64,000 nt of DNA from a virus, in the IMG/VR virus record IMGVR_UViG_3300046507_000667, positions 124,001-188,000 of that record; one strand, 5' to 3'. A program made the translations under genes and the position numbers. How positions within the stretch are numbered: the first letter of the stretch is position 1; each line of letters starts with the position of its first letter. This document shows positions 48,347-63,965 of this stretch, in pieces. A model generated the notes under the pieces. That model did not search any database. It was given only the letters and a program-made list of their open reading frames with translations, and was not told where the DNA came from.

Positions 48347-49318
48347 TTATTCTTCTTCGCCGATTTCATCAGCTAGATTAATAGTCTTTACTCGGTTACG
48401 TGGTGCTGCAGATGGTTTCTTTTTAATTCCACCACCATTAATATAACCCTGTGAATCTTCATTCAATTCATCTTCTTCATCCTGATCTTCCATCACGAAT
48501 GAGCCAAGGGTATCAGCAATCTTATCTACAGATGCTGACTCTTTTAATTCATAATCTTCAACTAGACGCATACCATTATCAGGCTCAAATGGATGTGCAA
48601 AATAACCCGCTGTAATACGAGTTTGATTCTTATCTGCACGATTCTTTAAGTCTTTAAAAGTAAGCCACATACTCTTTGTACTTACAGCATATTCCCGATT
48701 AATACCGGCAACAAAGTCTGCATTTTCAAGAAGCATATTGGATTCAGAAATCATAGCTTGAGTAATTTTATTACCCACGTCCATTTTCTTTTTACCGTCT
48801 GCTGATGTCTCTTCAAGAACACGATAAGCTTCACGGTTAAGCTGATTAGCTGTAATCACTGGAATCTTACGTGCTTTCGAAAGAGTACTAAATTCATTAA
48901 TAGCTTCACCAATATCAATACGTAGATCACCTGTAGGAAAATCTGGCTTAATACGTTTAATATAGTCATGAATAATAATCTTTACTTCTACATTTTCTTC
49001 AGATTCAACTTCATTGATAATACCTTCAATATCACCAGTGGAAATTGAATTCTTTGGACGGTATTTAATCTGTAAGTCCCAACGTCCATCCCGTAGCTTT
49101 TCCCTTACCATATTGGCAAGGATTTCATTAGTACCTAGTGCTTTACCATCATCATTCAGCCCTTTAACATATGAAATGGTACGTTCAAGGGTTTCATGAT
49201 TATCATTTTCTTGTGATAGATATAAAACACAGGGTCTTTTTGATCTATCATTGCATACAATATCATCATTATATTTACAAGCCCAAAATGCTACATTAAG
49301 CAATAGGCCGGATTTCCC
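48347..49318 (-). CDS. DnaB-like replicative helicase, exon 2
   Basis: Begins with GGGAAATCC (GKS) at 49318, completing Walker A as GTSSGKS when joined to exon 1. It then carries LYLSQEND, a Walker-B-like VKIIIHDYI followed by KRIKPD, and TANQLNREA, the usual DnaB-family order (H1a to H4). Ends in an acidic tail. The exon adds 323 residues, giving about 564 in total, in the size range of phage gp41-like helicases. An in-frame TTG at 49303 can mislead gene callers. Confidence 0.85.
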   Translation of the reverse strand, partial: GKSGLLLNVAFWACKYNDDIVCNDRSKRPCVLYLSQENDNHETLERTISYVKGLNDDGKALGTNEILANMVREKLRDGRWDLQIKYRPKNSISTGDIEGIINEVESEENVEVKIIIHDYIKRIKPDFPTGDLRIDIGEAINEFSTLSKARKIPVITANQLNREAYRVLEETSADGKKKMDVGNKITQAMISESNMLLENADFVAGINREYAVSTKSMWLTFKDLKNRADKNQTRITAGYFAHPFEPDNGMRLVEDYELKESASVDKIADTLGSFVMEDQDEEDELNEDSQGYINGGGIKKKPSAAPRNRVKTINLADEIGEEE

Positions 49319-50486
49319 ATTTATGTTATCGGTGATCGTTAATCACCTTCTTATGTTTTCACATAAGATCAGACTATATCTTATTGAGAAATAAAATATT
49401 TCTCAATATCTATATTTCCAGAATCACTTGATTCCGTACTCTCACTATGGAGATAGTCGTTGAACATTATTTCTAATAATCTGCCAAGATTATCGAATTC
49501 CCAATAGGGAATTCTAACTAAACCAATTCCGTTATCAATACAAAATTTATTCTTATATTGATCAATTTCCTGCCTTTTTATAAATTCGACCTTATGCTTT
49601 TCTAAATTTAAAAATGCTTCATAATGAAAGCGACCATCATACTCAATAAAGAAATAGCCTTCAGGTAAATCTATTTTAAAATCATATTTAATAAATTTAC
49701 TACGTGTATTTGGTGGATTATACTGTTCTGAAAAACTAATATTATGCTTAGTTAACCATTGTCGTATAAATTCTTCACCTTTAGAAGATATGCAATTTGG
49801 ACAGCGATTTCCCTTCACAATAAAGTTATTTGGTCTCATAGTAAAAATAGTATTACATTCTTTATGAATGAATTTCTTTTTATCATGAGTATTAGTATAT
49901 TCATCTATAAATTCATACTCATTATTAGTAATAGTACTAATTTGAGATTTAAATTCATCAGTAGAATACCTATAACTTCTATGTGAACATTTAGGACATC
50001 TAGTACCACCACCTAAAAAACCTTTTGGTGTAACTTCAAATTCATTCCCACAAATATGACGTAAAATTACTTTTTCATTATAATTTGTATAATTACTTAA
50101 GCATATATAGCTATTTATATGAGATATTTTTTCTTCAAAAGATTCTTTAGTAACTTTCATAAATCCAGCACAAAAAGGGCATCTAGTACCTTTTCGTTTA
50201 CTTGATCCTCTGAAGTCACCACGTTTAGCACTAAAAGTTCTTTTACAAACTTCATGTCTAAATTCAATAGGTGTATGATACTTTTTATATTCGGATAGCA
50301 CCGTATATTCATCGCCAACCAAATCACGAACTTCTAAGAGAAATTCTTTGTGAGTTGTTTGTCGTGGCATACATATCCCTTAAAATTTCTTGGCAGAGAT
50401 GAAATAATGCTGCTGATTGCCCTCGTCTTAATACGTTAGGGGTTTCCAGCAATTAATAGATTTTATAGTGAACTGAAAGTTAATCC
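49319..50486 (-). other. Group I intron in the helicase gene (about 1,168 nt)
   Basis: Interrupts Walker A between GTSS and GKS. Group I hallmarks on the minus strand: AATTGCTGGAAAC (50454-50442), AATCAGCAGC (50418-50409), the P7 5' strand GTTCAACGACTAT (49465-49453), a P8-like 10-bp hairpin (49406-49384), and P7 3' strand GATATAGTC (49380-49372). GG occurs at both splice borders, so the junction could be shifted by one or two bases; translation fixes the joined codons as AGT GGG AAA. Confidence 0.85.
49381..50370 (-). CDS. EDxHD-type homing endonuclease in the helicase intron (329 aa)
   Basis: ATG 50370 follows AAGGGATAT. Three consecutive zinc-finger-like repeats of about 65 residues, each ending in a CP-x-C or C-x-H-x-C type cluster (RCPFC, RCPKC, RCPNC), precede a Vsr-like nuclease domain with IEYDGRFHYE at about residue 242, the EDxHD signature of the I-Bth0305I family. 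The last 24 or so codons, from MFNDYLHS on, are encoded by the intron core (P7, P8), so the ORF ends just at P7 3'. Likely mobilises the intron. Confidence 0.85.
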   Translation of the reverse strand: MPRQTTHKEFLLEVRDLVGDEYTVLSEYKKYHTPIEFRHEVCKRTFSAKRGDFRGSSKRKGTRCPFCAGFMKVTKESFEEKISHINSYICLSNYTNYNEKVILRHICGNEFEVTPKGFLGGGTRCPKCSHRSYRYSTDEFKSQISTITNNEYEFIDEYTNTHDKKKFIHKECNTIFTMRPNNFIVKGNRCPNCISSKGEEFIRQWLTKHNISFSEQYNPPNTRSKFIKYDFKIDLPEGYFFIEYDGRFHYEAFLNLEKHKVEFIKRQEIDQYKNKFCIDNGIGLVRIPYWEFDNLGRLLEIMFNDYLHSESTESSDSGNIDIEKYFISQ

Positions 50487-51209
50487 ACTTGAAGTGCCAC
50501 AAAACACATAGCAACGACCCGGTTGAAAACCACCATTAAGCATCTTATTTAGGCGCTTAATACCTGTCTTAATATAACGCTTTGAGTCATTCATATTACG
50601 TCGAACACCATCCAATGCATGAATAAAAGCATCATTGGAAAAACTCATATCTGGAATTGATAGAGAGGTGGTTGACTTAGAGATAATAGTACGATTAAGA
50701 CGTTTACACGCAGCACTCATTAGATTCACACCTTCTTGGAATGAATCAACTTCGTGATTTTCGAATGCTGAGATTGCTTCTTTTACTTCTTGAACCATTG
50801 GCATTGCTGTTACATAGTTCAGTCGAGAAATAATCTCATTTTCAATGAATACTGCTTTATTTGAATCAAATGGTTCATTTTCTAGTAATTCGCTAAGATC
50901 ATCTGTTAATTGATCATAGTCTTCTTTATTCTTTGGTGATTCAAGTAATGCTGTACAAATTAAACTTGTATCATCAATATTTTCATCAATTGCAATCTTT
51001 AAGAAATCACGAGCAAATCTATAATGTAATTCAATATCCGCATCTTCAAGGTAGATCTTTGTGTCTACTGTAAAAAAGAATAAATCGAGCTTGGTAAGGA
51101 AGATCCGACTTCTATACTCAGATAGAAGATACATACACAATTGCTCAAATAGATACTGAGGCATTGTAACTGTCGGCTTTGCCTTAGATGAAACTTTTCT
51201 TTTTTTCAT
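50487..51209 (-). CDS. DnaB-like replicative helicase, exon 1
   Basis: ATG 51209 follows AGGTACTAC. Encodes 241 residues: a basic N-terminus, a helical N-terminal domain and linker, then GIKRLNKMLNGGFQPGRCYVF and CGTSS, where the frame is cut by the intron; unspliced translation adds six residues and stops. With exon 2 this makes the RecA-like ATPase that would unwind DNA at the replication fork with a primase. The 5' leader carries a long hairpin at 51249-51291. Confidence 0.85.
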
Positions 51210-60506: not shown

Positions 60507-61577
60507 TTACTCTAGAACATCACTTGTATCAGTGCTATTAAAGATATTGATTAGGAATTCCTTACGGAACTCTGCATCTTTGCCCATGAATCGCTTCATA
60601 GTGTCTTTCATATCTTTGCCTGGAAGTACTTGGATAAGTTGACGACGCTCAGGATCAAGAGTCGAGTTCCAAATATCTTCAGCAGAAGCTTCTCCCCATC
60701 CCTTGAATCGTGTCACAATAACAGACTTCTTGACATGATCTAGGAGGTTATTGAATACTTCAAAGTATGAGTCACCTTCGATCTGCTTGCCACGGCTTGT
60801 TGTTTCAAAGCTATAGTTTGCAATTTCAGCTAGTGCTTCATAGAGATCTGATACATCTTGTACAAATTGACCACCATCGACATTGACAATACAAACGAAA
60901 TCTTCTTGGATTGCTCCCTTATAGAATCCGATAATATTTACATTGTCGCCAGTAGTTTCAGTTACTTCGATACGATCACCAAAATCAATCTCACCACCTT
61001 CGGCATCGAAGTTTTGTACAAAGACTGATTCAAAGATACGTGGATTGATATTGTACTTCTTTGCAGCTAGTTTAAGAGCATGCAGATAGTTACGAATTTT
61101 TCCAATTACCTTTTCTTTTTCAGACTTCTTAGAAACTTCCTTTTCATCTACAGTAAATTTGAATGAACTTTCAATCTCATTAACGAGATATGCATTCAAG
61201 TCTTTCTCATTACGTAGATAAGATAGCTTGTGACCATCTTTAATTACCCGATAAAGAGGTGATACTGCAATATACAGACGACCTGCTTCAATCAATGGTG
61301 CAGTAAGTTCACCGAACATGGTTGTTGCAAGCATTTCGATGTGCTTACCATCGGAGTCTGCATCGGCAAGGATGATGATTTTGTTGAACTTGAGCTTTTC
61401 AAGATTAAAGCTACTACCAGTATCACACTTAAGGATAGTAACAATATCGTCAATTTCATCATTATTTCGCGCTTTATGCGGTTCAAGTCCGAAGACATTT
61501 TTCGGCTTTCCTTTCAGTTTATATACTGCCTGAAAACGCTTATCACGAGCATCCTTTACTGTACCGCCAGCCGAATC
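60507..61577 (-). CDS. gyrB: GyrB-like topoisomerase subunit, exon 2
   Basis: Starts at GAT 61577, completing EGDSAGG after splicing; the ATG seen at 61580 is made of intron bases. TOPRIM motif ADADSDGKH (about 30 residues after DSAGG plus spacer) supplies the metal-binding Asps, and GWGEASAEDIWNSTLDPE near the end is the GyrB tail signature that contacts GyrA. The exon adds 356 residues; the mature protein would be about 802, close to GyrB of E. coli. Confidence 0.9.
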   Translation of the reverse strand, partial: DSAGGTVKDARDKRFQAVYKLKGKPKNVFGLEPHKARNNDEIDDIVTILKCDTGSSFNLEKLKFNKIIILADADSDGKHIEMLATTMFGELTAPLIEAGRLYIAVSPLYRVIKDGHKLSYLRNEKDLNAYLVNEIESSFKFTVDEKEVSKKSEKEKVIGKIRNYLHALKLAAKKYNINPRIFESVFVQNFDAEGGEIDFGDRIEVTETTGDNVNIIGFYKGAIQEDFVCIVNVDGGQFVQDVSDLYEALAEIANYSFETTSRGKQIEGDSYFEVFNNLLDHVKKSVIVTRFKGWGEASAEDIWNSTLDPERRQLIQVLPGKDMKDTMKRFMGKDAEFRKEFLINIFNSTDTSDVLE

Positions 61578-62627
61578 CATATGTTAACCCTAGTATCGTT
61601 ATTACTAAAGTATGTATGATTTAAATTTCTAAATCAATAATATCCCGCTCATATAATTGCTTAATGATAAAAGCAGATGTCATCATTCCATGTAGAGAAG
61701 GAACTCGAATTACTTCAATTCCATGCTCTTTGCAAAGTTTAAACTTAGTTTTGTCTCTATTCATTGTCTTTGGAAATTCAGCTTCTCTTCCTTGCTTGGA
61801 AATATAATGCTGTTCACCATCACATTCAATAGCTAAGTTGTACTCTGGTAGGAAGAAATCAATCCTAAGACCAAATTCTAGCTTAAGCCAGTCAAAAGTC
61901 TTTTCTTCTTCATATACAATTTCAACTTCATCCAGTACTTCTTTAACTGCAATTGAAGTCTTTGATTTAGTTTGATTACATGGACACCTAGTACCATTAT
62001 GAAATAAATCAGGACGAGTTTTCCAATCCTTTCCACAGGTCTTATGTCTAAGTAATACATGAGTTTTGTTATTCACATAGCTACTAATTAAAGTATATTC
62101 ATTTCCTGTCAAATCTTTTAGCTTTTGACTAAATTCTTCAGCAGTATAACTCCATGATCTATGTGTAGCACACTTGGGACAATTATTCGGTTTTGGTTTA
62201 AGAAAATCATAAGGAGACGTGGTTCCCCACTCATGCCCACACTTATTGTGTTTGAGCATAATAGGATCATGATTCCGAATATACTGTCCTAGAACTGTAT
62301 ACTCTTTACCATATCGATCGCTAACTCGTTTACAAAATTCATCATGTGTAAGTTGTTTTGGCATTACAATTCTCAGTAGTAGAAACTAAGAATCTGTTAC
62401 ACAATCACCCTCTACCGATACATATCTCATGCTTTCACATGAGTTCAGATCATATCTTCATACTTAGTTTCAAGTATGTCTCCCGTTTCCCCTGCACTTG
62501 CAGAGTACGCCTTATGGCTGATCGTTGAACGTTCCTTTTTCAAGGCTTCGCTGCTGATTGTCCTCATCTTTACATGTTAGGAGTTTCCAGCAATTAGAGA
62601 GATTTAATGAGAGCAACTCGGCAGTTT
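61578..62627 (-). other. Group I intron in the gyrB-like gene (1,050 nt)
   Basis: Exon 1 ends in GGT (U before the splice site) and the intron ends in ATG with exon 2 GATTCG, so U and terminal G fit group I rules. Core elements on the minus strand: AATTGCTGGAAAC (62595-62583), AATCAGCAGC (62559-62550), P7 5' strand GTTCAACGATCA (62530-62519), P8 hairpin with AAGTAT/ATACTT, and P7 3' strand AAGATATGATC (62458-62448). The whole core lies before the endonuclease gene. Confidence 0.9.
61621..62364 (-). CDS. EDxHD-type homing endonuclease in the gyrB intron (247 aa)
   Basis: ATG 62364. Two zinc-finger-like repeats (ending in NNCPKC and TRCPC) precede a Vsr-like domain with the EDxHD motif in AIECDGEQHY at about residue 172. 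N-terminal MPKQLTHDEF and the repeats resemble the helicase-intron enzyme, which has three repeats and starts MPRQTTHKEF. It lies after the intron core, in the peripheral P9 region, and probably cuts intronless gyrB alleles. Confidence 0.85.
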   Translation of the reverse strand: MPKQLTHDEFCKRVSDRYGKEYTVLGQYIRNHDPIMLKHNKCGHEWGTTSPYDFLKPKPNNCPKCATHRSWSYTAEEFSQKLKDLTGNEYTLISSYVNNKTHVLLRHKTCGKDWKTRPDLFHNGTRCPCNQTKSKTSIAVKEVLDEVEIVYEEEKTFDWLKLEFGLRIDFFLPEYNLAIECDGEQHYISKQGREAEFPKTMNRDKTKFKLCKEHGIEVIRVPSLHGMMTSAFIIKQLYERDIIDLEI

Positions 62628-63965
62628 ACCCTCAACGAGATATAGCTCTGTACGTACACCGTCTTTTTCTTGACAATCTACGAACTTTGAGATATTGGAA
62701 AGTGACGTTACAAATGAACCACTTTCTTTCTTCACATTCTCAAGAGCACGTTTCTGTGCTAGACGAGACTTAGCTGAAAGAGCAAACTTAGTCGCAAGGA
62801 TTTTCATTTCCTTTGGACTATTATTCATCCACTCATCTAGCTTTGCATTTGTATACGACAATACATGGCCCGCTACATCAGTATTGACAAGCTTCTGTTT
62901 AGTCTGTGATGAATATTTCGGATTGAATACGAATACTGATACTACTGCTTCAAGACCAACGAATACATCTTCATTGTCAATCTTTTCTTTCGTAAGATTC
63001 TTTTCACGAACGAATGCAGTTACTTTCTGACTCAATGACCGTTTGAAACCAGTCACATGAGTACCACCTTCAGTAGTCTTAATAGTATTGGTAAATGACG
63101 TAATATTGTCACTTGCAAAACTATCATTCCAAGTTAAAGCAATTTCAATCTTAGTATCATTAATAACTTCTGAGGCAAGAGATACAGGAGCAATGATACC
63201 TTTCTTACCTACTGCTTCGGCTAGGAAGTCAGCTACACCTTCCTTGAAGTTATGAATAATCGGCTTTTCTTGATGACAGCTATGATATTCAACTGTCAAG
63301 CCAGAATTAAGTTGTGCAACTTCACGGAGGAATTTGACAATTTCTTCTTCAATAGGTAAAGTACCTTCCTCAAAGAATTGAGGATTGAATTGGAAGTTGA
63401 CACGAGTTGAAGACTTCTTATAACGCTTATCAGCTGGTAAAGTAACATTTTTCGATACCTTTACCTTCTGCTCATAACCATTATTGAAGGTAATTTCACC
63501 CTTATCAGTTCCTCGTTGTGCTTCTACATAAAAGATTGCTGAAAGAGCATTAACACATGACGCACCAACACCATTTAGACCAGTAGAATATACTGTCTTC
63601 TTTTCAAAGTTACGACCAGCATGGAGCTTGCCAAAAATCTTTGATAGGGTATTGGAACCATCATCTTGCTTATCAAATGGAACACCTCGGCCATTATCAT
63701 AGACAGAGAAGCTATAGTCATCATGCCGTGTAACAATGATAGCCGTTGCAAAACCTGCAAGAAATTCATCAACTGAGTTATTGATGATTTCTCGAATAGC
63801 TGTCAAATAACCTGCAGAGTCATTTGGACCAATATACATCTGTGGACGTACTTGGACACATTCCGGAAATGGAAGTTCTTTAATGTCCTTACCAGTATAG
63901 TCATTTGCTACTTTAGTAGCTGCTGCAGCAATAGCCGTTTTTTCTACAGACTTAGTACGAGCCAT
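62628..63965 (-). CDS. gyrB: GyrB-like topoisomerase subunit, exon 1
   Basis: ATG 63965 follows AAAGGTAGAAATTC. Encodes 446 residues with GHKL ATPase motifs: REIINNSVDEF at about 58-68, DNGRGVP at about 92-98, TGLNGVGASCVNALS at about 128-142, and the transducer domain. The exon ends with LYLVEG, cut by the intron before DSAGG; unspliced translation adds a short tail and stops. With exon 2 and the GyrA-like subunit this forms an A2B2 enzyme. Confidence 0.9.

Follow-up and report, generated by a model that had tools for sequence, protein, structure and literature searches.

The interrupted helicase gene

The window analysed here is a 64-kb stretch of a 249,347-base virus record, and the locus described is read on its minus strand. 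The annotated genomes nearest to the record are those of Yersinia phage phiR1-37 and Bacillus phages AR9/PBS1, and the source is a 249-kb jumbo phage related to phiR1-37. The locus holds a DnaB-like (divDNAB) replicative helicase gene in two exons, the 5' exon at 50483..51209 and the 3' exon at 48347..49317, separated by a group I intron of 1165 nt (49318..50482). Inserted in the P6 loop of the intron is the ORF of a 329-residue homing endonuclease (49381..50370). The ORF that contains exon 1 (51209..50463) matches the DnaB-like helicases of PHROG phrog_19 with an E value of 1.1e-6, and the 3' exon matches PF20307 (divDNAB) with an E value of 3.1e-15. The exon-1 ORF ends at a stop codon in frame with the exon (50463..50465), about 20 nt inside the intron; in-frame stops soon after the 5' splice site and the control of ORF translation have already been described (PMC3984707; PMC3073962).

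An intron at the same site was found in one relative only, phiR1-37 (NC_016163), in which it lies between g335 and g337, carries the endonuclease g336 and has the same insertion codon and core type. In the phiR1-37 record g335 and g337 appear as hypothetical proteins annotated apart, and no intron feature is given; the comparison suggests that they are one intron-split helicase. Single-sequence scans of IMG/VR with the endonuclease or the helicase exon returned no close relatives, and the IMG/VR relatives of both proteins came from alignment queries instead.

The placement of the splice junction draws on the P1 pairing, the terminal intron G and about 20 homologues. The exon end AGUGGAU (50489-50483) pairs with the intron guide GUUCACU (50473-50467) to form P1 (50467..50489), with a U.G pair at the splice site and an A-U to C-G compensation in phiR1-37; the first base of the intron is U. 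At the 3' end (...AAAUG|GGAAA) the intron closes on its terminal G and is followed by exon GGAAATCC. By inspection, a P10 pairing is also possible between UUUC (50478-50475) and exon GAAA (49316-49313). The junction supported by these features, 50483|50482 ... 49318|49317, splits a Trp codon as T|GG. The 5' exon ends in ...GTSSG plus the T, the 3' exon begins with GG followed by AAA TCC, and the spliced product expected from structure and homologues would read GTSSGWKS.

The P-loops of intronless homologues are GLPKGFKS in AR9, GLPKSFKS in BpSp and GVPKSFKS in LPJP1, those of IMG/VR homologues are GLPKRFKS, GLQGGWKS, GMAKGFKS and GLQGEGKS, and the spacing from the first G to [F/W/G]KS is four residues in all of these. 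No gap is needed to align GTSSGWKS with GLPKGFKS, GLPKSFKS, GVPKSFKS, GLPKRFKS, GLQGGWKS or GLQGEGKS, and the sequence fits the divDNAB Walker A pattern G-x4-[GFW]-K-S. The phiR1-37 intron, which also has the P1 U.G pair and the terminal G, independently gives AISGGWKS, and its predicted spliced string is ATCAGGTGGCT|GGAAAAGT. An earlier, sequence-only reading had the intron separating GTSS from GKS. That the intron interrupts the P-loop stands, but by P1, the terminal G and the homologues the site is placed 4 nt later, and the reading of the helicase product is corrected to GTSSGWKS. The shorter, canonical-looking Walker A of a GTSS|GKS junction is very improbable: the frame would likewise stay open, but this junction has neither the U.G splice-site pair nor the terminal G, leaves a P-loop one residue short that needs a gap against all homologues, and disagrees with the GGWKS obtained independently from phiR1-37.

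The ribozyme core and the endonuclease

The 5' strand of P3 (AUCUAU, 50456..50461) pairs with AUAGAU at 49413-49408, with one A-U pair replaced by G-C in phiR1-37. P4/P5 occupies 50410..50452, with UUGCUGG (50452-50446) paired to UCAGCAG (50416-50410), and the 5' strand of P6, AUUAUUUC (50401..50408), forms 8 bp with GAAAUAAU at 49473-49466. The P6'/P7 5' segment GUUCAACGACUA lies at 49465-49454 and ends in GACUA (49458-49454), which pairs with the P7 3' strand UAGUC (49372..49376). P8 is a perfect 11-bp hairpin (49407-49383), and the region 49331..49367 is made up of a P9 hairpin (49367-49350), in which two pairs show two-sided changes in phiR1-37, and another hairpin on its 3' side (49347-49331). 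P3, P4, P6, P7, P8 and P9 pair in both phages, with one non-standard P6 pair in phiR1-37, and the P7.1 and P7.2 hairpins between P7 and P3 are present in the window, in phiR1-37 and in a 50-intron consensus.

The match to Rfam Intron_gpI is weak (21-25 bits, under the gathering score), since the core is broken up by the inserted endonuclease. A custom covariance model was therefore built on 50 IMG/VR introns that lack an ORF and had been picked out by scanning for a P7 pattern, with the window and phiR1-37 held out. This model matches the 3' core in the window at 49465-49348 with 70.2 bits (E value 2.6e-10), all modelled pairs being standard, and also matches phiR1-37 (E value 1.1e-7). On its core pairings, the P1 U.G pair, the terminal G and the presence of P7.1/P7.2, the intron is of the phage IA type of group I, with splicing predicted.

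The endonuclease ORF is preceded by an RBS-like AAGGGA (50381-50376) and matches the endonucleases of phrog_559 with an E value of 1.3e-68. A Pfam search gave no family above the cut-off, and a sequence search of the PDB gave a weak zinc-ribbon match only. The protein consists of zinc-ribbon repeats and a Vsr/EDxHD-like nuclease domain. In the AlphaFold2 model (mean pLDDT 75) the folded nuclease spans about residues 195-307; it matches Vsr (1cw0) with a Z score of 11.3 over 113 residues and the EDxHD homing endonuclease I-Bth0305I (3r3p) with a Z score of 10.1 over 94 residues, but the identity to the catalytic domain of the latter is 15%. Glu199, Asp230, Glu243, His249 and Asp270 are invariant in eight relatives and are candidate active-site residues. 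By its predicted fold the enzyme is thus of the EDxHD/Vsr type, and cleavage of the intronless allele is putative, by analogy with the family. Residues 300-307 prolong the last predicted helix, and pLDDT is below 50 for residues 310-329.

We note that in phiR1-37 a stable hairpin (L009 1758-1800; -13.6 kcal/mol, z -5.4) encloses both the RBS and the start codon of the endonuclease gene, and that it resembles the hairpin known to sequester the RBS in T4 td. In the window, the corresponding hairpin does not stand out from shuffled sequences (z 0.38).

Other group I introns are present in the same phage. Its record (G000, loci L001-L008) contains eight matches, five of them above the Rfam gathering score. 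A second complete intron in the window (62426-62653, minus strand; 77.8 bits with Rfam) splits a DNA gyrase subunit B-like gene close to the toprim motif; the flanks are 62604-63965 and 60507-61580, exon 1 ends in ...YLVEG and exon 2 has DSAGG. A Vsr-type endonuclease at 61621-62364, apparently in this gyrB intron, lies downstream of the core, and the two do not overlap. Next to a different intron of the phage, a Vsr-type endonuclease (L003:577-1356) carries an in-frame stop immediately following LLIEFDGK, past which homologous-looking sequence resumes; it is possibly a decayed copy.

The coding overlap and its relatives

The endonuclease gene ends inside the ribozyme core, as the sequence-only reading had it: the ORF (50370..49381) runs from the 3' strand of P6 through P8. 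The shared stretch is 93 nt (49381..49473) and comprises codons 300-329 and the stop. It takes in, in order, the P6 3' strand (49473-49466), the P7 5' strand (49458-49454), P7.1 (49453-49450/49443-49440), P7.2 (49435-49431/49424-49420), the P3 3' strand (49413-49408) and P8 (49407-49397/49393-49383). The stop codon TAA (49383-49381) shares its first base with P8. An overlap of some 24 codons with the P7 5' strand and a P8-like hairpin had been claimed; both elements are confirmed, but the extent is 30 codons plus the stop from 49473, and P6 3', P7.1, P7.2 and P3 3' had been omitted. The stop is close to the P7 3' strand but does not abut it, 4 nt lying between them.

The double role of this stretch, as coding sequence and as part of the ribozyme, is borne out by the held-out covariance search and by two-sided compensatory changes relative to phiR1-37, of which the overlap contains three in P6, one in P3, five in P7.2 and four in P8. 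The P3 change is silent, Asp GAU against GAC. The codons for FNDYLH are identical one for one in the two phages because the P7 5' RNA is identical in both. A codon-level comparison showed no extra constraint: synonymous conservation relative to phiR1-37 is 9/15 in the overlap and 58/88 in the rest of the gene, so that the pooled overlap codons are no more conserved. With no excess of codon identity, what supports the structure is the pairs together with the held-out model, not codon usage.

Most of about 70 distinct family members, found by the catalytic motif, stop directly behind the last helix and lack a tail, and the second endonuclease in the window (61621-62364) likewise has no such tail. 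In the sequence-only reading, a homologue that stops before the core would refute the claim; most homologues, this second endonuclease included, do so, but the overlap in the present intron is not undone. Where the endonucleases run into P7, the GUUCAACGACUA RNA is read in all three frames: as FNDY in the window and phiR1-37 (FNDQ in L115), as VQRL in one PBS1 gene and in L058, L102, L171 and L189, and as STTI in another PBS1 gene and in Goe21, L026, L243, L246 and L320. Measured from the start of P6'/P7, the tails in the three frames are 13-127 nt long. A double constraint, as implied by the sequence-only reading, is accordingly weaker than it seems: the tail lies outside the conserved fold, other members end earlier and the core is read in three frames, and the RNA therefore appears to dictate the tail peptide.

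Two further kinds of gene end were seen in the family. A member in Lactobacillus phage Lb338-1 (L257:3092-4099) ends at a TAG inside the GATATAGTC motif, which appears to be a further case of a stop located within P7 3'. The endonucleases of L299, L307, L329 and L348 end in ...CND, and from these peptide ends the P7 5' strand (AACGACTAA) probably supplies their stop codon.

The lengths expected by chance were taken from 186 ORF-less introns with the same core, the frame entering at GUUCAACGACUA; depending on the frame, 9%, 12% or 14% of these introns have no stop within the first 85 nt or more. The pattern-scan set contains 10 endonuclease ORFs that cross the P7 5' strand (the window and phiR1-37 included) and 19 that stop either at the first base of this strand or no more than 34 nt ahead of it. 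When the window and phiR1-37 are left out, tail lengths in this set show no excess over the null (P = 0.60). They are slightly longer than the null (P = 0.035) when the window, phiR1-37, PBS1, Goe21 and L115, which were not chosen blindly, are added. The tails of the window, phiR1-37, PBS1 and Goe21 fall in the top 3-9% of the null; these four are not an unbiased sample, and their length leaves room for selection in the jumbo-phage group.

Comparison with known introns and interpretation

The arrangement has been described by Edgell et al. (2011; PMC3073962), who named it core creep and tabulated overlaps of up to 81 nt. In the T4 td intron the P6-loop endonuclease I-TevI also runs into the core, and the 3' end of its gene forms part of P6a/P7 (Edgell et al. 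2011, PMC3073962), but that overlap is only 20 nt and the enzyme is of the GIY-YIG type, against 93 nt and a Vsr/EDxHD-type enzyme here. Longer overlaps, as in the present case, are those of the Synechococcus lividus LSU intron (81 nt; P6/P7/P3/P8/P9.0/P9) and the Bacillus thuringiensis nrdF intron (56 nt; P6a/P7/P7.1/P7.1a; both PMC3073962, Table 1), but the former has a LAGLIDADG enzyme, listed in P8, and the latter a GIY-YIG enzyme. The same-site counterpart is phiR1-37 g336, which belongs to the same family, is likewise inserted in P6 and continues through the P7 5' strand, P3' and P8 as here; its overlap is longer (135 nt) and its TAG stop lies inside P7 3'.

In our view, with a probability of roughly 90%, the locus is a case of core creep: a mobile phage IA-type intron in the helicase P-loop, the endonuclease frame of which has drifted into the core, with a tail that is most likely incidental. 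The intron would be expected to remove itself from the RNA and join ...GTSSG-T to GG-KS..., and the P6-loop endonuclease, judging from its family, would promote the spread of the intron through cleavage of helicase genes that lack it. The folded nuclease domain is predicted to end near the start of P6 3', and the frame, open on through P6', P7 5', P7.1, P7.2, P3' and P8, would add about 20-30 residues. What is conserved would be the RNA structure, as indicated by covariation and the held-out model, with the added residues most likely incidental. By analogy with T4 td, the core should be unfolded by ribosomes that translate as far as the tail; one RNA probably could not, therefore, splice and finish endonuclease translation simultaneously.

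This last point is the basis of an alternative in which the overlap is a selected regulatory device, translation of the tail unwinding P7, P3 and P8 and making splicing and endonuclease synthesis mutually exclusive, to the benefit of the phage or the intron. The frame does remain open over the whole core in the window and phiR1-37 despite large changes from P7.1 to P8, the four jumbo-phage tails and the pooled P value lean the same way, and so does the strong hairpin over the phiR1-37 endonuclease RBS. Against this, the pattern-scan set without these two introns has no excess of long tails, the window hairpin behaves like shuffles, and relatives differ in both reading frame and tail length. 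We consider it improbable that selection in the jumbo-phage group has kept the long overlap, with splicing and endonuclease synthesis as exclusive fates of one RNA.

Slightly less probable still is a tail that works as part of the endonuclease, for example in DNA or RNA binding, so that protein and ribozyme would both constrain the stretch. FNDYLHS and GNIDI.KY are common to the window and phiR1-37 and the last predicted helix is prolonged by residues 300-307, but conserved P7 5' and P3' RNA would in that frame specify just these shared residues, relatives translate this RNA as VQRL or STTI or have no tail, and pLDDT is low over residues 310-329. The evidence argues against a dedicated tail peptide.

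Core creep, as preferred here, carries the prediction that tail length should vary and that the tail may not be essential (PMC3073962). Our data agree with the variable length, and the predicted disorder of the tail and its absence from most relatives are consistent with its being dispensable. The overlap is long but not surprising; it looks like harmless read-through and not a new mechanism, in a composite mobile intron of a described type. Extreme cases are added to those known, with endonuclease genes entering the ribozyme core by 93 nt here and by 135 nt in phiR1-37, and the comparison across introns constitutes a computational test of the core-creep idea: since one core is read in three protein frames and the tails of the unselected set have chance-like lengths, it is the RNA, and not the protein, that appears to set the sequence.
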